41,632 nucleotides of DNA from positions 166,796-208,427 of the forward strand of contig KL197757.1 of assembly GCA_000697665.1 (NCBI GenBank), read 5' to 3'. This DNA is from Jaapia argillacea MUCL 33604 (lineage: Eukaryota; Basidiomycota; Agaricomycetes; Jaapiales; Jaapiaceae). Shown one piece after another: positions 1,675-38,337 of the stretch (position 1 is its first letter; each line of letters begins with the position of its first letter). The position numbers and the translations under genes are program-made. The notes beneath the pieces are model-generated. The model was not told where the DNA came from and ran no database searches. It was given only the letters and a program-made list of their open reading frames with translations.

Positions 1675-2881
1675 GTTGCCAGTCTACTGCCCTGCAGTAC
1701 ATATGTTCTAGCCCCTTGCCCCCTTCCCTCTCCAGTTTGCTTGATTGTGACAACATACCCTTGAAATCAACTTGCCCAGTCCATCCTCTACAGTTCATGC
1801 TCCAACAATGTCCACAGTCAGGAGCTTGGAGAAGATGCTTTGAGGAAGGCTTTGGTTCCTCTGGTTTATCACACTACAGACCATTGTCAGTAAGGAGTCT
1901 CATTATTGGCCAATCTAGTATCACAGCTGATTTGAGGACCAGATCATCAGATCACCATCTCCACCAAGACAATATCTTGGATCAGCGCAGCGTGGATCAC
2001 AGTGCAGAAGAAGAGAAGGTGCGAGGGCTGGTGGAGTAGAGGTTCCCATCTCAGCAGAGACCAAGTTCATCATCCATACTACTTTTGTGTGTATCTGCCC
2101 ACTCCTAACATGAGTTTTTCTCTGGACATAATCACTGAACCAGCAACCAACTCATCCTCCCAAAATTCCATCAGTCTCACTAGCAGCGAACACCCAGGTT
2201 GACCCATATACTTCGATGTGAACCCACTGCTTTGGCACACAACCAATTGAGCTTGTAGGGCAAGGTCCTCATGACCACTGTGGTGGCTTCAGGTATCACA
2301 ACAGTACGACACAGTGAGGCGTCGCTGTTCAGAGCTTGAGTTGGGCTGATGGTGAGGGCGGTAAGGAGGGTGTTGAGTTGGAGGATACAATGGTGAGGGC
2401 TGAGGGCACATTTCCTGTGAGTGCTTTCCCCATGTTGGCCTGTGCAGTTATTTGATTATGGGCCAGTTTGATACACTAGGTTTACGCTGGAATTGGGGGA
2501 CTGTGTTGAAGTAGGAGATATGGCCTCAACGCCTAACATTGGGATGTTCATTATGTGGTTGCTTATGAGTCATGGTTGACATTGACATCAGCAAATTTAG
2601 AGCATTGTTTCTCCCATCCTTCAATCCTCCACCCAAGCTAGTGGCGGCATTTCTTCCGTGGGAGACTCGTTGGCTGTTTGGGAGGTCTGGAATGGTGTCC
2701 TAATACAGCGCACCACCTGGTAATCTTACACGCTGTATCATTCTATGTACACCTGAAACCATACAGTTCTGAGCATCATAAGACTCCAAGTGAGTGATAA
2801 GCTACACACCTATAGAAGCAGAGGGATCAGATAAGCGTCCTTATCTGTCAAATTCTCTCCCCTCTCAAAATAGAAGCCCAG
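1675..2881. other. No convincing gene
   Basis: Only short unsupported frames are visible on both strands, with no family motif. It may hold decayed 5' exons of the JmjC-like gene downstream on the minus strand. I found no repeat or RNA gene. Confidence 0.4.
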
Positions 2882-4801
2882 TCACTTCTCCTCCTCGTTG
2901 GCAAGATGAAGGAATTTGAGACTGTGTGACTTGGAGTATCTCGACACCTTGCAGAGTGTGTGTTCAACAAATATGACATCAAATCCCAGCTCCTGCTGGT
3001 CATCTTTAGTCAAATAAGTGTTGAGATGATCATAGACAACCCTGAATGCAGTGGTGATAGTGACAGCACTGGAAACGGATAGGAGACCCATGTTGGCCAG
3101 GGATGAATACACTCCCTTTTTGGTATTCTTCGATATCCATAAGCCAATATCTTCAATGGTCAGCATTTGGCAAATCCCAGTGTATGCAAGGTGGTGTGCT
3201 GCTTGGAACAAGGTCAGCTTGCTGCCGAACATTGGAATATTCAAGCTGGTGAGCAGTGCGAGGGCTTTGCTCTATGTCTTGGTGGGAGGCCCATTTTGAG
3301 TCCTGAAATCGCTATTTTTGGGATCCTGATTGAACAATGGACTGAGAAATTCTTGCCATTTCTGGGATATGGAGTCTGCGAACATGGGCTCAAACTTGGT
3401 TTCGATATCCTCCGCATTGCATTTGAATAAAGGATTATACTGGCCCCACACCCAAGGGTTGTTGAAGTGGAAAGGCGCTGATTCAGATGCTGGTGCGGCC
3501 TTGCAAAAACGCTTGATGCATTCATCGAGGGTGTTATAGTAGGTGGTTGGGCATTGCTTGATGAAGTCTGAAGTCTTTTGGGACTGACCTGTACTTCCAC
3601 ACAAGCAGAGCTGCAAGGCCGTTAGCCTCGGTCAGCATGTGAGGCAGTAGTTTCTCTGCGAAAAGCTTTACACCTTCTGATCCCTGTCAATGGGGATTGA
3701 AATTGTCAGTGGTTAGACTGGTATGAGGTTGACCAGTGGCGGCATGTAGGCCACTGTACAGCCGTCGCACAGCATCTGACCCAGCAGCAAGGCCCCGCTG
3801 TGCATTCAATGATTCTCACAGTACCAGACCCAGCATCCCAAACCTGGCTCTGAGTGTCTGTGACCCTGCATCCATGTGATCTTGCTCTTGTGATGAGTTG
3901 GTCAGAGTTTGCCCTGTGTTTTGGAGGGGAGGCAAAGGCAATGTACAAGCAACCAATTTGCTGTGAGACTTGGTCCATCTCTGTTGGCTGTTCAAGTCCT
4001 TAAATGCATGCCAAATGAAATTGGTGAGATCCTTGGATACCTCGGTGACACCAGGATGGGCTGTGGTGTAATTGCTGACCCAATCCATGAAGGGACTTAG
4101 GGCTGCTCATCTGGTGTCATCAAGATAGTTTCTGAAGGTTGGGATGTGCTTTGAGGTGTAGATTAAGCATGGATTTTCCAAGAACTTCTCCATATATGGA
4201 CTTGCAAAAATACCATCAGCCATCTCCAGGGTTTGCTGAAGTGCATAGCAGAATGCCCTGCGAACTAGCAATAGGTCAGAGACATGGGGTGTTACTTCAT
4301 CTGTTTTTTCTGTATTCAGTTGCAAACTCTTTGGTAGTTGCTTGCAGAGATCAGAGTTCATTTTGGCCAGCTCAGGTTTGACAAGTTGGGACCACCAAGT
4401 TTCACAAAGAGTCTGGCAGTAGAGCGGTCTCCTAGCATCCTTAGCTAGGTGAGTCGATGGAAGAGTGGGAAGATTGAAACATCGTTTTGGATTCCCTGAA
4501 TGACAGTTGTCCTCAATCCCAAGTAGAGTCTGCAGTGCAGAACAATCAGGCAGTGTGGCATTCAGAGGCACATCCTTCCGGTGAATTCCCTCTTTACACA
4601 TGGCCTCCTTAGTTTCTTCTTCCGAGCAAGGTATTGCATATGTGCATCCACATACTTGACCACCCAGACCACGATGTCTGCGAACTTTGGACAAGTGACC
4701 TTCAGTTGCAAAAGACCATCATCCAAGTACGAACTGATCAGCATGGCAGCAAGGTCAGGTCCTCGAATCTGGTACCACTCATATATGAGTGCCAGAGAGT
4801 G
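2882..4801 (-). pseudogene. C-terminal part of the large oxygenase-chromodomain protein
   Basis: The minus strand continues the same reading as the TET/JBP-like gene upstream, so I treat it as the 3' portion of that gene. Recognisable blocks in order are a segment near 4694-4107 (ending in IPTFRNYLDD), a block near 4088-3900 (PFMDWVSNYTT), a block near 3650-3290 containing NNPWVWGQYNPLF, and a last block near 3270-2882 containing LTLFQAAHHLAYTGIC and FVEHTLCK. I recall similar blocks in large uncharacterised Agaricomycete proteins, and no catalytic motif is evident. The frame shifts near 4600-4650 and in several other places, and a TGA at 4107-4109 sits where CGA (Arg) fits. Continuity with the upstream part is inferred from strand, spacing and uninterrupted coding character. 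Confidence 0.45.
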
Positions 4802-17333: not shown

Positions 17334-18489
17334 ATGGCTAGAGGAAGAATACGTCACTCAAAACCTATAAATTGGTTGTCTCTTACAAGATAACCTCCTC
17401 ACACCACCACGGAAGGTCTACCCCCATCCAGTTGATATCTTACCCTCCCTGAAGGGTGGACACTCCCCACACTTAAAACTGTTCTAGAAAACTTACCTGA
17501 CCACGTTGACAATCTCACTTATGACTCCATCTATGACACCCCATGTCTCTTCAGTTCTCCTATTGCAATACAAACAGGAGAAAAGCCAGGTTGGGACTAC
17601 CTACCAAAAGAAAATTACCCACCCCACGAGAATCTACCCAAATTAAAAGATTATCTCAATTGGTTGGTCAAACCAGGACCTTCCAAACCATGAGTAGCCA
17701 AAGACAAAGCAAGGAGAGGAATCAGTGAATCATCTCGTACATCACGAGCTGCAACCCCAATTTCCCTCAAAGTTCCACAAACTTCATCACCCTCTCCTAT
17801 TACATTTGGAGGATCCCCAACACCAGTAGTACCAGTACAAACCTTTGCTGCATTTGCACCTACAGCAGGACCATCCATGGTACCCATTATTCAAGAACCA
17901 GCTCCTCAGTATCCAACTGGTGAACCTATTGTTACATCAATCCCTCATCACTTTGAATCATATCGTCCTCCACTTGATTGATCTCCATCTCCCGATCCAC
18001 CTAGAGGATCTCCTGACCCTAACCCTAGTCATTAACCAGACGATTCAGACAACGATATGGCAGGAGATTCGAAAGAACCACAATTGTCTCCTCCTACTCC
18101 ATTCACTGGGGATAGGAAAAAGACAGCAAAATTCGTCTCTGAAGTCAAACTATTCATCGCAGCCAAACCAAAAGACTTTCCTACCAAATTTTCCAAAATA
18201 GCCTTCATTCTGTCCTACATGAAAGACGGACCAGCAGGATCATGGGCAATGAATTGGGTTAGCAGATATGATCCAGACACGGAATCGCTCCTAGACGTCA
18301 AAGAATTCTACAAAACTCTTGAAAAAGATTTTGCAGAAATCGATAAAGGACAATCTGCTTGTATGCAAATCCAAAACCTTAAACAAGGAAGGTTTTCGGT
18401 CGATTCCTTTACTGCTGCCTTCAACGAATTAGCAAGGCATACTGGGTTTAACGATATAGGACTCATGGAAGCCTACAAACATGGGCTTA

Positions 18490-18555
18490 TTGCCGTTTTC
18501 ATATATAATGTCAGTTCGGAAAAGAGAAAAGTTTTGTCTGAGAGGTCCAAGAGGT
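18490..18555 (+). repeat. Left terminal inverted repeat of the Tc1-like element
   Basis: Matches the reverse complement of 21,292-21,357. The first 36 bases are identical. Two of the three mismatches are TG or CA here against CG in the other arm. Confidence 0.92.
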
Positions 18556-18663
18556 AGCAAGAGGTCCGTGGAAATATGACAACTCAGTCACGCCTAACAG
18601 CGTGTTGGACTTGTTCGTGTCTTGAACGTCAATTGTCTGCTTCAACCCCCATTATCACCCACA

Positions 18664-20043
18664 ATGCCCATTGACTCGAACTATGACGGATCTGACGATG
18701 AGCAGGAGAACCAGCAGGCATAAGAGAGTGAGTAGCTTCTTCCTTATGCACATATAGTCTGCTAATGCCTTCTAGGCATTTTCAATGACGGGAAGGGAAT
18801 GGAGATTTCCGTTGACTTTACTCCATTACCAAACCGAAAGGACAAGAAATGCAAGAACAGCAAACCGAAGACCATTGGCAAGGTTGTCTACATTAACAAG
18901 AATGGCCTGGATGCCATCACGTTCTTGCAAACCCTCCTTTACCACCTCAGGCGCTCTGACCTCCTCCCACAATATCAGTTGGATGACCCTGATCCAGATT
19001 CTTTCAAATTCATCACATCATACACCATCCCACACCAAGTAACTAGCCAGATGACCATCGAGAGTGAGTCTGACTATGACACTTTCATGGAGATGCTCAA
19101 GAAGAAGCTGGAGAAGGCTGAAGTGAAGATTTTCATTGTTGAGAGGATGGTAAGTTTAGAACCACCTCACCTTTGGTCCATTTCAAATCACTCACTACTG
19201 CTAGTTCGAGAGACCTGACGAAGATGATGATGACGAAGAGGATGAAGAGGGGGGATTGAGGGTAAAGAAGAAGGTGAGTCACCATCTTGTCCTTTTCGAG
19301 TATGCACCTTGATGTTTCAGCACAGAAGAAGGTAGAACCGACTCCCGAGGAAGAAGAGCAAGGCCAAATCATCGAACAATTGCAACTCGAGCACCGCTGC
19401 GGCGATGCAAACTGCCTGCACTCCCTGTGCTTTGCGTCTCACGCGACTAGTTTACATGATCATATTCATTTGACATTCGCACATCTCCGTCAATGGGCAA
19501 GTGGTATTGTGAGTACCAAAGCCTCTCTTCTGATCAAACTATTTGAATGCTTGTATGTAGCAAAGTGGCCAAGACGGGGTTGACCTTCAGCATCCCCTGA
19601 ACACCAAGATCTTTGATATTGGTCGCCAAAACTTTGATATCCTCACTCAATGTCGTAATGCCCTGAATGGTAACTCCAGCAATAATCAGCCTCCGATCAG
19701 TATCCACTTCAACGGATTTGCTCAAGCTTTTGCCTCGCTCGGCCCCCAACAAGCCCAGCGAGCACCGGCTCTTCAAGCCCTACAGTATGTTCTGCCTCCC
19801 CATCTTACTTGCGAGCAAGCACTTGATAAACTCCCTCGTATGGGCCTTGCCGATTTCTGTGACTTGTACGACCTCAACCTTGAGATTGAGAACAAACTAG
19901 CTACCATCAAGATTACTGGACCTCATTCCCTCTCTTTCGTCAAGGACCTAGCCCTCCAAACTCACGGATTGCTGATCGGTGAAATTGCAAGTATCCGCGA
20001 TGCAGAACGGAGGTGGTTCGTTTCAGCAGAGGGGATGCCATAG
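18664..20043 (+). pseudogene. Unknown passenger gene inside the Tc1-like element (one in-frame TAA)
   Basis: Five exons with canonical 48-56-nt introns: 18664-18727, 18776-19149, 19205-19273, 19326-19508 and 19561-20043. All phases join correctly to give about 390 codons, with a single in-frame TAA at 18,721. A near-upstream Met (GMEISVDFT) could start a shorter intact protein. It begins with an acidic leader (DGSDDEQENQQ), then VVYINKNGLDAITFLQTLL, an acidic stretch (PDEDDDDEEDEEGG), a Cys/His-rich patch (HRCGDANCLHSLC, then LHDHIHLTFAHLRQWA), and a C-terminal segment with MGLADFCDLYDLNLEIENKL that may be helical. I recall multi-copy uncharacterised Agaricomycete proteins of similar layout. 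No enzymatic motif is seen. Introns show capture as DNA, not by reverse transcription. Confidence 0.75.
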
Positions 20044-20089
20044 CTCACTGTCACATTTCTTCTCCTTTCCTGTAATTGCTACAATGTGT

Positions 20090-21145
20090 TTAACCACACT
20101 CTCGAAAGAATCCATATGTCATAGCTGGAGTAATAATCTCACATGCGAGAGAAAGTTCGTAGTACAATGACTTTGAATCATAGAAGCCAATCCCACAGCA
20201 ACGTAGGTGGGATTTGATGGTGGAAAAGGCTTGTTCAATAGGGTTATAGTCTGGGGAATAAGGGGGAAGATACTCAAGACGGCATCCTTGGGTTTGGAGT
20301 CAGTTTGGTGACTATATGTGAGCACAAAGCATACCATAGCTCTCTACTAGGTCAACAATCTTGGGAGAGTGGTGGATTCGAGCATTGTCCATGACGAGGA
20401 CACTGTGAGGTCCAGGGTAGGGGTTGGTGAGAGGCAACTAGGGACTCAGTTAGCGGAAAATATGTATATTGGTTGGTCATCATACGACATCATCCCGGAG
20501 ATACTCAATGAAGGTATCCCGATGGAAAGAACCTTCAACAACACTTGATGTGATGATACCCTTGCTGAGGGCCATAGCAGCCACCATGGAGAACCTGCGC
20601 TTCCGGACAAACAGAGCATGCCCCTCACAGTGCTGCCCGATTGGTGACCAACCCCAGAGCCTTGCATACGTATGGTCATCCTTGGAAACCTCATCCATTG
20701 TCACCAGGTAATCTGCAGGATACTCCCCAATCCTGCGAGCAAAGTCGGCACGTATAGCGGGGTCCCTCTCTGCAGCCATCTTCTGAACACGCTTTACATT
20801 CAGTCCAGCTCGTTGGAAAGACTGATGGATAGTGGTGATGGAGGCTGGCAGGAAGCGATATTCGAGGAGGCAGCTAGCATATTCGTCGAGGAATAGGGTG
20901 GGCTTGTAACAAGTGAGAGTGAGAAGATGCTGGCAATCCTTGTTGTGGAGCTTTTGCAGTTGCCCTCGTCCAATTGCTTGGGCTTTGGCAACACTCCCTG
21001 TGGTATGATAGTGGTTGAGAGCACAATACAAGGTTCTTGTGGTGAAGCCAGTGATTTTCGAAATTTTGGTGTTGGTGTCTCGCCCTCAAATCTTCAGTCT
21101 GATTGCAGCAAGTTTGAGGTCGTTGCTGATTCTTCTGTTGCCCAT
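20090..21145 (-). pseudogene. Tc1-like DD34E transposase (one in-frame TGA)
   Basis: ATG at 21,145 (MGNRRISNDLKLAAIRLK). Three exons (21145-20486, 20437-20335, 20286-20090) with two 48-nt introns encode about 319 residues, normal for fungal Tc1-like enzymes. An N-terminal helix-turn-helix-like region is followed by a DDE_3-type catalytic domain: first Asp in YLVTMDEVSKDD, second in VLVMDNARIHHS, and Glu in LPPYSPDYNPIEQAF. Thirty-four residues separate the last two, i.e. DD34E. The ending YGFFRECG is followed by TAA. One TGA sits after RLKI near the N-terminus, where CGA (Arg) fits. The enzyme would cut at the terminal repeats and insert at TA. Apart from that stop it looks intact. Confidence 0.88.
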
Positions 21146-21291
21146 GATGAAGGAGGGGACAGATATGCCTCTAAAGTGGTGGCAACAAGAGGGACTCAAA
21201 GCAGAGGTTTCACGACTCGATTGCGCCCAATGCAAAGGGAGACTTTTTGCCCTTGTCTCTCAGATGTGACACTATCATCACATTTCCGTGG

Positions 21292-21357
21292 ACCTCTCGG
21301 ACCTCTCAGACGAAACTTTTATCTTTTCCGAACTGACATTATATATGAAAACGGCAA
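21292..21357 (-). repeat. Right terminal inverted repeat of the Tc1-like element
   Basis: Reverse complement of the left repeat, ending ATATATGAAAACGGCAA before the TA duplication. It keeps CpG at two positions where the left repeat has TG or CA. Confidence 0.92.
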
Positions 21358-21870
21358 TAAATGGGAAATCCTCGAACAGATCGTTAAACTGCCAAATCCA
21401 CCAGAAAGTCTGGCATCTCTCCAGGATATGGCAGCCAAATTCAAGTTACTAGGAGAAGTGGCAGCAGCAGAGAAAACTTGGCATGAAGGAAGAGGGAAAG
21501 GACTGATTTATCCCTCAGCCTTCCAGACCAATTGGCAGGCTCCATCTAGGGACTATAGTCAAGGAGTCCCTATGGATGTCGATGTGGCCAAAACTGGTCC
21601 AAAGAAACGATTCAAGAAACTCACTCCTGAAGAACGACTCAAGCTTCAAAAGAAGGGAGCCTGTTTCTTTTGTTGCAAACCAGGCCATTTCTCTGGACAA
21701 TGTCCTTTAAAAAAGGGCAAATCCTTTCAAGCCAGAACAGCTGATGCAACTGAGGAAGACGCACAGCCTAGTTCTATCATTGATCAAATCAAGGAACTGG
21801 TCACTCAGGTCGCAGAAGATGACCAGGGGGAACTTTTCATGGCTATGAAAGATGAGTTCTCCAAATTGGG

Positions 21871-21877
21871 TTTTTAA
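21871..21877 (+). promoter_or_regulatory. Possible -1 frameshift site between gag and pol
   Basis: Gag ends GGT TTT TAA. The T run lets the P-site TTT re-pair one base back, after which the next codon is TTA and the pol frame continues (LKRLALTADVKAW). It is not the textbook X XXY YYZ heptamer. An alternative is a one-base deletion in this copy. Confidence 0.4.
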
Positions 21878-27787: not shown

Positions 27788-28110
27788 ACTCTGGCTCTTT
27801 GTATCAAATTCATCAGGCGGTCACTTTCTATTATCAAAGTTCACTTTCTGCTATCGAGCTTTCACCCTCTATAGTCTGCGCTTGCTCTCTGTTGCTGTTT
27901 TTCTAATTGCTCTCTGTCCTCTCTGGTCATCGACATTTACTCTGGATCTTTGCTACACCCACTCATTGCAATCTCTGCTTTCATTCACATTCTATCTCAG
28001 GTGTTTACTTTCAGATGTTCACACACCATCTTAAACTCTTACTCTTCATTGATATACGTTCTCTCTCAATCTTAGCTCGGTCTTTTTTGACCTCAATCGT
28101 TCTCAGAATT
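27788..28110 (+). other. Upstream region of the Plavaka gene
   Basis: Non-coding and pyrimidine-rich, with repeated TTCACTTTCT and TTGCTCTCTGT words similar in style to 15.35-15.53 kb. It may contain the transposase promoter or subterminal repeats of the element. No clear TATA box. Confidence 0.35.
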
Positions 28111-31100
28111 ATGGTGAAGACCAAGATCTCTGATCTTCAAGATAGGACGTGCCCTGCATGTTCACGTGTGTACAACACAAAGGGAGGTATGCATTCCCAC
28201 CTCTCTCAATCTAAGAAGTGTGCTTGGTATAGAAAGGGAAAGAATAAGGAGGTTGAGGCAGGATTTTGGGAGGATGATAGAGATGGGATGAATGAGTTGG
28301 ATTTGGAATGGAGAGGTGATGATTTTGGAGGAGATGGACCTGAGGGTGTTGAGCGAGATGGAGATGAAGACGATCGTGATGGATTGGGAGGTGATATTGG
28401 AGATGGAGATGGAGAATTTCAGGATGTTGATCAGGGAGATGCAGGGCCCTCTCATCAGGGGAGATTTATGGAGGATGACAAGGATGAGAGAGTCATTGTA
28501 GAACATCCTACTGCTGGGAAGGTTCTACAAGTGGATAAGACGTTGCATGACATGTGGAGGAGGCATTTTGGGGAGAGATTGGAGAAGGGTACTGATCAGG
28601 ATGGTGACGTTGCAATGGATTCTGATGAGGATTCTATTGCTAATGGAGAGGTGGAAGGAGATGCATTTACGCCTTTTGCTTCTGAGTTGGATTGGAGGAT
28701 AGCACAGTGGGCAATACAGGAGTCACCTTGGTAAAGGGTCTTTTGATAGATTACTGGCTATACCTGGTGTGTGTAACTTCTATAATCATAATTTTTCCCT
28801 TGCTGATGTGGATCTTAGGTTAAGGAGAAGCTAGGACTGTCTTACAAAAATGTACTTGGTATTCACAAGCTTGTTGATTCCATACCTGAACGAGCTCCCT
28901 GGCTCCATCATCCTACGAGACAACCCAGAAGAGCAACATCTCATTCAGTACAGAGATATTCTCAAGCTTATTCAAAGTCTATTCACCAACCCAGCTCATG
29001 CTAAAGATATGAGATATGCTCCCATACGAGTATACAGTGATGCAGAGAAGACCCAGAGGATCTACCATGAGATGTGGACAGGAAGATGGTGGAACATTAT
29101 CCAGGTGAGTGCATGGATAAGTGCTCTGATTGTCTATGCCAAGAAGCTAATCTCTTCCATTTCTAGAACGCACTTCCCAGAGGAGCGACCGTAGCTCCAA
29201 TCATCATTTCCACCGACAAGACCCAGCTCACCCAATTCTCTGGCTCCAACAGCACCTATCCTGTATATCTTACCATTGGAAATCTTCCAAAGTCTATTCA
29301 CCGACGACCCTCAGAACATGGAACAGTTTTGTTGGGATATCTGTCTGCTGACAAAATCATGGGATCTGTTAAGAATCACACCATGCTACGCCTATTTTCA
29401 TTTTTCTTGTTGTTCGACACTCCTCATGGATATCTGATCCTTCCATATATGGGATCATCAAGCACTACGATCATATTCCTCCCGAACACAAGGGACGGGT
29501 TCATATCCCTTCAACATCCCTCCAGTACATTCTCACTCCTGATCATCAGACCTCCGGTGCATATCTGCACACTCAACCTTATCGTACCCAACCTCTGACA
29601 TTCTGACTCCTCGTTACATCAACACTCCATCTTCCAGTATGACCCAGGCCATGGACTACAGACCCCTACGTCTCTGACTCATAGATCAGACCATTGACTG
29701 TGGACTACAGACTACAGACCCCTAACTACAGACTCCTATCTTCCTGACTCATTTCGACTCATGTTTACTATTGTTCTACTACTGTTTTACTCATTGCTAC
29801 TACAGACTATGGACTGTGCTTCATCTTACTATATATACTTCCCTGTATTTGCTAGTATTCCCCATCTTGTTCACTTTGTCAATATAGATCGTTATCTCTA
29901 TTCACATTGTTCCAACTTGGTCTCTGTCTGATCATCTGTCTGGAAACCTCTGATAGTCTCTCATCCTCTCATTGTTCTACTTCTGTGGCTGTAGCCTAGG
30001 CATCATCAGAGAAGTATCAAAGTCTTTCATTGTATACTTTGTTGAAGTAACAATCATAACAGGATTGTCCTTATCCAAAGCTGAGAAAAAGGCCAAGATG
30101 CAGCACCTATTTCATGAGTCAATGCACACCATTCTGGAGCCCCTACACATCGCCAGGGAGAAGGGAGTGGAGATGATTTATGGAGATGGCAGTGTAGCCT
30201 CATCTTCCTGATCCTTGCTGCCTATGTTGCCGATTATCCCGAGCAGTGTTTGGTGACTTGTGCCAAGAGTGGTACTTGTCCCAAATGCCAATGCCCAGAC
30301 AAGGAGCTTGGGGAGTCCACACCTGGAGCATCTAGAACATCAGATTGGACTTTGAATGTCATTCACTCCGCTCAGAAGGAGGTGTCTAGTAAAACAGAGT
30401 TCTCCAAGCTCTGTATGTCCCAGGATGTCTCTGGATGTGTTCACAGACCTTTCTGGGAAGGTTTTCCATTTGCCAATATTCACAAATCTATGACGCCCAA
30501 CGTTCTTCACCAACTCTATCAGGGCGTCTTTAAACACTTGGTGACTTGGTGCAAGTCAGCTATGGGTAGCTCGGAGCTGGACAAACATATACAATGCCTT
30601 CTCCCATCTTTTGGTACCTGTCATTTCAAGAACGGAATTTCCGCCTTGTCCCAGATATCCAGATTGGAAAGGAAGGACATGGCTAGGATCCTTCTTGCCT
30701 GCTTGACCAGCAAAATACCCAAGGAGGGAATTATTGCTTGTTGCTCTCTCTTGGATTTCATCTAACAAGCTCAAAACCCAACCCACGATGACACCACTCT
30801 CAGCTACATGCAAACCACCTTGGATACATTCCATTGACACAGAGATATTTTTATCACCCTTGGCATATGCCAAAACTTTAATATCCCTAAATTCCACTCC
30901 TTGCTTCACTATATCAACACCATACATCTATATGGTACCACCGACAACTACAACACAGAGATGTTTGAGCGTCTTCACATTGACTTGGCTAAGGATGCAT
31001 GGCATTCTACAAACCACAAAGATGAACGCCTGCAAATGGTCAAGTGGGTTACACGACAGGAAAAGGTGGCATCCTTTACTAGCTATGTGGCATGGAGAGA

Positions 31101-36607: not shown

Positions 36608-38337
36608 ATGCTCCTCTTCCCGACAGAATCGAGGAAGAAACTCTGCAAGTGTTGGTCCCATTGCCTGACGTACAATCCTGTGGCAAAGAAGTATGAAGGG
36701 GAAGGTTATCAAATCTCCAAGACATTGTGGAGGTGGCATCAGGAGGATGATCAGTTAGCCACTACAATCCTTGCCATTGAGGAACAGTTTGCCTCACAGG
36801 TACCAGGCTGTTGAATCCTAGACGTCTCTGATGGTGCTAACTCTGCCCCAGGTCCTGGCTGATGTCCCTTCCCTCAGCCAAGGCCAACATATCTTATTGG
36901 ATGTGGAAGGCAACACCATGTCCGCCAAGATTCCCAGCAAGCCCAGCGACTCCCAAGCTGACCAACTCTACTCCATCCAGCAAGAAGTCATCAAACACTC
37001 ACTCTACATCACTCCCCCACATTCCCTCATCTTTGTCAACAAACTGTCGCTTTCTGGTCCTTATCAGCACCCATTATTTGAAGGCCTGAGTCAACCAAAT
37101 TCTGGTCTTCATGTGCTCCAGAAGCAGTCCAGGACGAATGCATCATTTTTGCAGAATGAGTTTCGCCTTTGCAAGCTATTGCATACCGTCGAAATGCTGT
37201 CACCAAATTCATCAACCTTGAAACTGGAGAATAGGATTTGCAAAGAGTTGGCAGCTATTAATCTCTTTAAGGAAAATGAGTGGGCATGTCAGCGAGGCAC
37301 GTCAAAAAGCGACATCTGTGTCAACACAGGTGAGATCATCGTCTTCATATCTCAAGTAGGAATCGTGCTAAATACAGGATATCTAACAGAGTCCTACTTC
37401 TCACTGACAGCATTGAAGCACCCATCGCTGACTGCGGCCTATGTCACTGTTCTTACCATGTCAACTCTATACCAACTACCTCATCATGCTGCCAAAATAT
37501 TGCTCGCCGGTTTGCGTTCAGTATTTGCTGGTTCAAAGGACCTTTTGGCTTTGAAAGAATCCATTCCTCGTGATCCACACACCGTATTTTCCCAGTTCCA
37601 TCTCAATCCCATCACTCAGACGCATATAATGTGTCCAGCATGTTACCGTCTTTACCCATACAACACCAAGACCAACGTAATCCCAGATTGGTGTTCAAAC
37701 CATCCAACTCCATCCTGCAAACCTTGTGGGGTGCCTCTTTGGAAAGATCATCAGCTGGGCGAGACGACATTGAAAGTTCCAAGGGTGAAGTATCTTCACC
37801 AGGGAATGAAGGACTGGATAGGTTGATTGCTGTCTTGTGCTGGGGTGGAGGAGATTCTGGATTCCCCCCATCCCCATCCCGACGGATCCGCTCATGATTT
37901 CTGGGATGGTCTGGCATCGCGGAGCATGCTGGGGCCAGACCATAAACCATTTTTTCCTGTGCCAGATGGGGAGGGAAGACTGGTGTTTAGCCTGGCCGTT
38001 GATGGTTTCAACCCACTCCATATGAAGGAAGCAAAACAAACTGTATCCTCCACTGGGATCTTCATGGCTTGTTTGAACTTCCCTCCCCACCTCTGGTATC
38101 TCCATGAGAATATGTATCTTGTGGGTGTAATTCCTGGCCCCAATAAACCATCTATCAATCAAATCAACCATGCTATCAACCTGATCATGGATGACCTACT
38201 TGAGTTCTGGGACCCTGGGGTTTGGTTTTCAAGGACAGCAAAGTATAAACTAGGCCAACTGATCAGGGCAATCCTGATACCTCTAGTTGCTGATATGTTG
38301 GCAGCTCGTCAGGTGATTGGATTTGGATCAGCCACTT
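36608..38337 (+). pseudogene. CACTA (Tnp2-like) transposase, 3'-truncated
   Basis: Exon 1 (36608-36799) carries a Cys/His-rich leader (KLCKCWSHCLTYNPVAKKYE); a 52-nt intron (36800-36851) rejoins in phase at VLADVPSLSQ. Exon 2 continues to THIMCPACYRLYPYNTKT and CSNHPTPSCKPCGVPLW, then, after an in-frame TGA at 37824-37826 where family members have Arg, GVEEILDSP, FSLAVDGFNPLHM, VSSTGIFMACLNFPPHL, GVIPGPNKPSINQINH and FWDPGVWFSRTAKY. This is the characteristic block order of Agaricomycete CACTA/En-Spm transposases. It stops at about GFGSATSC near 38,337, where unrelated sequence carrying the Myb/SANT-like gene begins, so the C-terminal half is lost. The start codon at 36608 is a best guess. 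Confidence 0.82.

Follow-up and report, generated by a model that had tools for sequence, protein, structure and literature searches.

Tc1-type transposases of Jaapia argillacea are recurrently paired with a convergent gene from a single protein family

Tc1/mariner elements are prized as tools since one protein suffices for their movement, and second proteins that help or control transposition are instead familiar from the Harbinger, CACTA and MuDR elements. Excerpts of the literature describe Tc1 elements as about 1300 bp long, with terminal inverted repeats (TIRs) of about 30 bp and a single open reading frame (ORF) (PMC7325037), and name the ciliate elements TBE and Tec as multi-ORF exceptions within Tc1/mariner (PMC7325037, PMC4724952), all three TBE genes having ratios of nonsynonymous to synonymous substitution (dN/dS) well below 1 (PMC4724952). 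Here we analysed a 41,632-bp stretch of the genome of Jaapia argillacea MUCL 33604 (contig KL197757.1, positions 166,796 to 208,427; hereafter the window), in which a Tc1-like element of 2868 bp (18490-21357) carries a transposase gene and, convergent to it, a second, passenger gene. Sequence comparisons place this second gene with the element, recover it beside deeply diverged transposases of the same genome and reveal signs of purifying selection among its diverged copies. The element probably belongs to a long-standing group of DD34E Tc1-like transposons in fungi with two convergent genes, the second of which may encode a protein accessory to transposition.

Recurrence and conservation of the second gene

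Hand-merging the matches of a transposase search (16) and of a DDE_3 family search (27) gave 21 places with a Tc1-type transposase, which is a lower bound. At 16 of them a second gene lies convergent to the transposase, and these second genes all belong to a single protein family. The places are listed below, C-numbers denoting places in the same genome, with C49 being the window.

Two-gene places (16): C49 (window), C4:1455-1458k, C4:1490-1493k, C40, C34, C31, C52, C64, C33, C1, C16, C61, C23, C41, C15, C9
Truncated transposase fragments (2 of 21): C66, C14
Distant Tc1 lineage (3 of 21): C28, C22, C10

Inverted repeats matched at 74-97% enclose both genes at nine of the 16 places (window, C40, C4:1455-1458k, C34, C31, C52, C64, C41 and C15), delimiting elements of 2.9-3.9 kb; the match is 97% in C34, 74% in C31, 82% in C52 and 80% in C64, the TIRs of C41 are 335 nt long, and the C15 locus is truncated on one side. 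The window element, C40, C34, C31, C64 and C41 have TA at both ends, C52 has TG at one end, and the ends of C4:1455k and C15 are not assessable. No TIRs were found for the other seven two-gene places, most of these loci being short. Within the C52 element (L073, 1504-2288) lies an internal inverted-repeat sequence with arms of 127 and 112 nt, probably a nested small insertion that raises the element to 3871 bp. In the distant lineage no second gene was seen at C28, C22 or the partly masked C10 locus, where no TIR was found either; C28 and C22 (L033, L036) are one-gene elements whose TIRs span 1573-1574 bp, and three of their four ends read TACACTGAGGGACAAAAGT from the TA on.

Gene models were built for 12 of the 16 places, the loci of C1, C16, C61 and C33 being too short. 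The second protein has 316-460 residues in ten models; those of C15 and C4a are longer and probably overextended, and that of C64 probably lacks the true N-terminus. Retraining altered three of the 12 models (C9, C15, C31). The gap from stop to stop is 16-223 bp in nine modelled elements; the genes overlap by 92 bp in C23, and the larger gaps of C15 (308 bp) and C9 (529 bp) probably reflect models that end too early and miss the true 3' end. When three passenger proteins were searched against the genome, they gave 30, 4 and 10 exon matches (E <= 0.01), all within the listed transposase places; these are lower bounds, which very distant paralogs would escape.

Homology among the second proteins was assessed with hidden Markov models (HMMs). 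The window protein scored 48.0 bits against a model trained on the other 11 passengers, compared with 2.9 for the best of its 500 shuffles, and 46.8 compared with 10.8 bits when the test was run again with a different training set and fresh shuffles; the best of 267 decoy sequences scored 1.7 bits, pieces of the window's own gene being set aside. The match spans the N-terminal domain and a central module (Cys/His, conserved 'WA..I') and extends into the C-terminal domain. When each passenger was left out in turn, together with its close relatives, 12 of 12 beat all 500 shuffles in the first run and 11 of 12 in the repeat; the lowest scores (5.8-10.4 bits) are thin alone for C23, C64, C52 and C9, which are tied to the family via near relatives or module matches. 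With one locus taken for each non-window place (n=20), the best piece against a whole-family model scored at least 34.5 bits in all 15 positives and at most 5.9 in the other five. Since 11 of these positives had contributed to the model, the other four being closely related to its members, leave-one-out is the independent test. HMMs trained on single exons of three close passengers failed to find the window protein convincingly (C-terminus 8.6 bits, no match for the N-terminus); only models that spanned diverse members succeeded.

Searches of the genome with the window passenger's own sequence found no close copy, and a protein collection yielded no homolog of the spliced protein (E <= 0.01, 1922 candidates) or of its last exon (E <= 1, 39 candidates). 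This search relies on 5-residue words in common, and given the fast divergence of the passenger the absence says little; the collection does hold fungi, as it returned 401 matches to the window transposase, the source-named species among the best 120 being mushrooms. Nothing was found in scans of viral contigs and of bacterial and archaeal genomes. An earlier note, made from the window sequence alone, had proposed to look for several copies of the TIR family carrying both genes and for selection on the passenger. Within the TIR family of the window, which has one full and one truncated copy, this test failed, and together the two negatives above would have looked like a refutation; it succeeded through distant relatives only. 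The note's view that the second gene is stably kept by a transposon family, as passenger or accessory, is supported by the 16 places with a homolog and by the signs of selection between diverged copies; its suggestion that similar proteins are multi-copy in mushrooms was examined in this one genome.

Diverged passengers have dN/dS of 0.12-0.35 (11 pairs with a defined value, two more undefined), and five re-aligned pairs gave 0.07-0.22 against 0.96-2.06 in two shifted frames; synonymous sites are near saturation in diverged pairs, which makes these values rough. Third codon positions carry most of the passenger differences, for example 0.16/0.17/0.51 over the three positions between C52 and C31. 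Diverged transposases gave 0.09-0.13 (six pairs, three more undefined; no usable pair from C64 or C4b), the window and C66 transposases 0.27, and near-identical transposases 0.68-1.72. As read from these sequences, copies decay freely once inserted, while both genes stay under constraint in lineages that go on moving.

Passenger and transposase distances are correlated (Spearman 0.42; 12 elements, 66 pairs), with 10 of 5000 permutations as high. Homologous passengers adjoin transposases just 33-43% identical to that of the window, and the passenger-bearing elements of this genome fall in several deep groups of the transposase tree, two of which include Mycena, Candolleomyces, Coprinellus and Agrocybe proteins (among the best 120 of the 401 matches; C23, C22 and C10, with fewer than 140 aligned residues, were dropped). 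This suggests a second gene as old as the clade. Taken together, the recurrence, the homology, the dN/dS values and the restriction of all matches to places beside transposases indicate that the second gene is very probably an old element-borne gene under constraint rather than a recent capture from the host.

The element of the window

The features of the element, in window coordinates, are as follows.

18488-18489: left TA target-site duplication (from the sequence and the empty site L056)
18490-21357: whole two-gene Tc1-like element, 2868 bp
18490-18555, plus strand: left TIR, 66 nt
18664-18727, plus strand: possible first exon of the second gene, an acidic leader with a canonical donor after it and a TAA at 18721-18723; uncertain (from the sequence)
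18799-19149, plus strand: second gene, N-terminal domain exon (putative PB1/ubiquitin-like strand-helix order, low-confidence model)
19205-19273, plus strand: second gene, acidic linker exon
19326-19508, plus strand: second gene, exon of the central Cys/His ... WA..I module
19561-20043, plus strand: second gene, last exon, putative SAM-like C-terminus, stop TAG
20090-20286, minus strand: transposase exon 3 (catalytic E)
20335-20437, minus strand: transposase exon 2 (second catalytic D)
20485-21145, minus strand: transposase exon 1 (N-terminus, first catalytic D)
21086-21088, minus strand: in-frame TGA near the transposase N-terminus, Arg in most aligned relatives
21292-21357, minus strand: right TIR
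21358-21359: right TA target-site duplication (from the sequence and the empty-site comparison)

The earlier note had described perfect TA duplications, TIRs of about 66 bp, a DD34E transposase on one strand and facing stops 46 bp apart, and we recovered all four. The perfection belongs to the TA dinucleotides, the TIR arms (66-69 nt) being matched at 95-96%. The transposase, whose three exons were positioned manually and with the help of aligned relatives, matches DDE_3 (Pfam, 2.2e-27), and its second D and its E are separated by 34 residues by hand count; the TGA had gone unmentioned. For a possible N-terminal helix-turn-helix DNA-binding region, HTH_23 matched at E 0.019, which falls short of the Pfam cut-off. 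Three hallmarks of Tc1/mariner (TA duplication, TIRs and a DDE_3 transposase with DD34E spacing) are present. The five-exon second gene of the note stands in part: four GT-AG exons are secure, their phases join, and a splice-finding script picked the same four even when trained without the window sequence, whereas the first of the five is uncertain. Splicing from the canonical GTGAGT donor at 18728 would keep the frame that opens with the ATG at 18664, but this frame holds the TAA, and the alternative join uses a poor GTAGCT donor; the note's fifth exon probably uses that weaker donor, four bases on. The C31 and C52 passengers have a short acidic leader ahead of the first predicted strand, similar to that at 18664-18727.

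The element interrupts gag in a retrotransposon of Ty3 type (Pfam Ty3_capsid, 6.6e-11); the left gag flank has 24 genome matches, the window's own included. The parts of gag that the element splits were assigned to 18057-18557 and 21360-21877. The empty-site check that the note had called for was successful: the related gag copy L056 (C36:144591) reads GGGCTTAAATGGG, with no insert and one TA, running from GGGCT through the single TA to AATGGG, and is the clearest empty site in the gag alignment. Four of the eight aligned loci are informative (L056, L060, L061 and L062, not L057, L058, L059 or L063); L060, L061 and L062 are also uninterrupted at the insertion point, but more diverged than L056.

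Genome searches place only one further copy in the TIR family of the window, the truncated C66 fragment (C66:1038-1863), which is 85% identical to the window element and stops inside the transposase, so that the former presence of a second gene cannot be read from it. Both copies share the TGA, which either came down from a parent copy mobilised in trans or arose twice through CpG decay; 24 of the 26 CpGs of the window copy appear as TG or CA in C66. The C66 copy (L006, 1038-1860) is joined to retrotransposon-like sequence. Two other long ORFs of the window, at 27907-28734 and 36831-37826, have no Pfam match at E <= 0.01; the former has a zinc-finger-like CPAC motif, and the latter is presumably part of a mobile element.

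Possible role of the second protein

The N-terminal domain has a predicted beta-beta-alpha-beta-beta-alpha-beta order, as in PB1/ubiquitin folds (low-confidence model), with no PB1 profile match in Pfam and nothing useful among PDB profiles. Zinc-binding domains lead the PDB profile matches of the central module (0.13-0.35). AT-hook-like motifs (RGRPPK/GRPPK) occur in two of the six non-window passengers scanned, at the positions below; the motif scan found no GRPPK in the window passenger.

L075 (C9), about 2824-3158, minus strand: AT-hook-like motif
L070 (C4b), about 899-1160: AT-hook-like motif

PB1-like and SAM-like domains usually form protein contacts and polymers. From the PB1-like and SAM-like fold hints, the zinc-binding matches and the GRPPK motifs, we infer that the second protein could be an oligomerising accessory or regulator that binds DNA or the transposase. 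It would assemble on the element DNA or with the transposase, and would help or control transposition through end synapsis, nuclear loading or dosage control. We advance such an accessory mechanism tentatively, at slightly less than an even chance; roles in anti-silencing or self-regulation match the observations almost equally well.

Several observations weigh against our interpretation. All the family evidence comes from one genome. Stops occur in many copies, and the window transposase itself is interrupted by the in-frame TGA at 21086-21088. Near-identical passengers have dN/dS of 0.41-0.75, indistinguishable from their shifted frames (0.43-0.83), and no constraint is visible after recent insertion. 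The correlation of distances weakens when close copies are removed (117 of 5000 permutations as high), and in the repeat leave-one-out one of 500 shuffles passed C23, a damaged copy. The tree label test needed three changes, equally low in 500 of 500 shuffles, and a single origin of the passenger label was not shown; the test is uninformative because only one plain row could be aligned and truncated copies formed a separate label. As to the folds, no Pfam family passes the cut-off for any passenger or module tested, the single-sequence structure models are poor (mean predicted local distance difference test scores of 40.6 and 47.5, the N-terminal domain at 47.5), and the best PDB profile matches of the C-terminal domain, SLA1 at 0.059 and MAP3K15 at 0.59, which we take to be SAM-type, are not significant, with no SAM match in Pfam.

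Among other roles, the second protein could shield the element from host silencing, in the manner of VANC or TET proteins, without helping the transposition reaction. The methylation-type decay of C66 (the 24 of 26 CpGs) would agree with this, and fungal DNA transposons do carry such genes, excerpts of one study reporting TET/JBP dioxygenases in many superfamilies (PMC12730594), but an enzymatic or DNA-modifying Pfam domain was not found in the passengers, and we consider a shield rather unlikely. Less likely still, the second protein could hold its own element in check, as a repressor or copy-number regulator that forms polymers on the ends of the element. SAM-like and PB1-like modules would be typical of such polymers, although the fold calls here are weak, and the low copy number of the window family would suit a repressor but is also expected from silencing and decay.

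The remaining alternatives concern the origin of the pair. That the second gene is captured host cargo, a possibility raised by the earlier note, would agree with its introns and with its lack of a transposase-like domain. Against it, the genome searches, lower bounds as they are, found no host copy away from a transposase, and homologs beside transposases at 33-43% identity would make any capture very old; recent capture is largely refuted by passenger matches lying only beside transposases, and we regard host cargo as very improbable. Unrelated neighbours or nested insertions mistaken for one element might be suspected where no inverted repeats were found (7 of 16 places, most loci short), but TIRs and TA ends surround both genes, an empty site exists, and the convergent pair recurs in 16 places, which refutes chance and leaves this explanation close to negligible. 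Returning to the reading of an old two-gene lineage, a whole fungal clade of Tc1-type transposons could even be a two-component system, in which the transposase acts jointly with a dedicated, co-inherited polymer-forming protein already present in the clade ancestor; we propose this with somewhat more doubt than belief.

Comparison with known systems

The second gene was kept while the transposases diverged to roughly 35% identity, so in mushrooms the second protein appears worth carrying, be it for efficiency, regulation or defence against silencing. The family would name a set of unassigned fungal proteins and would offer a test system for the origin of accessory proteins in DNA transposons. 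No two-gene fungal Tc1 element was found in open-licence PubMed Central (PMC) titles and abstract starts, Repbase reports and subscription papers being outside this scope; if the family is already in a repeat database, its interest rests on the evidence for conservation and selection.

Like the fungal elements, TBE and Tec are of Tc1/mariner type with extra genes, but they have three ORFs, and the excerpts available assign a 22-kDa and a zinc-finger/kinase protein to TBE and a site-specific recombinase to Tec (PMC7325037, PMC4724952); by Pfam and by these descriptions they are set apart, the fungal second protein matching none of their domains in Pfam. The PIF/Harbinger-ISL2EU-Spy (PHIS) elements also pair, in several groups, a DDE transposase with a separate second protein (PMC4482050, in part), but belong to another transposase superfamily and have a TWA-type target site rather than TA; the second ORF of their Nuwa groups is described there as Myb/SANT (PMC4482050), for which the fungal protein has no Pfam match. 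A conserved non-transposase gene is likewise reported, mushrooms included, for the fungal DNA transposons that carry TET/JBP (PMC12730594, in part). These are Kyakuja, Zisupton, Plavaka and others, a term search of the main text finding no mention of Tc1/mariner (PMC12730594), and they encode a dioxygenase, whereas the fungal second protein has no TET/JBP match in Pfam. In Marasmius oreades, the Mariner-type MarorTcMar-18, described in an excerpt as 3,972 bp long with a moving 1,120-bp derivative (PMC9674265), is long enough for two genes, its likeness to our elements being a guess from length.

With the Tc1 (DD34E) family of IS630-Tc1-mariner the window element shares the TA duplication, the TIRs and the DD34E DDE_3 transposase. 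It departs from the canonical single ORF and length of about 1.3 kb with its 2868 bp and two genes; two-gene arrangements stand at 16 of the 21 places, the window included. If such a fungal clade is indeed a two-component system, the rule that Tc1 needs one protein and two short ends would fail in a major eukaryotic lineage.

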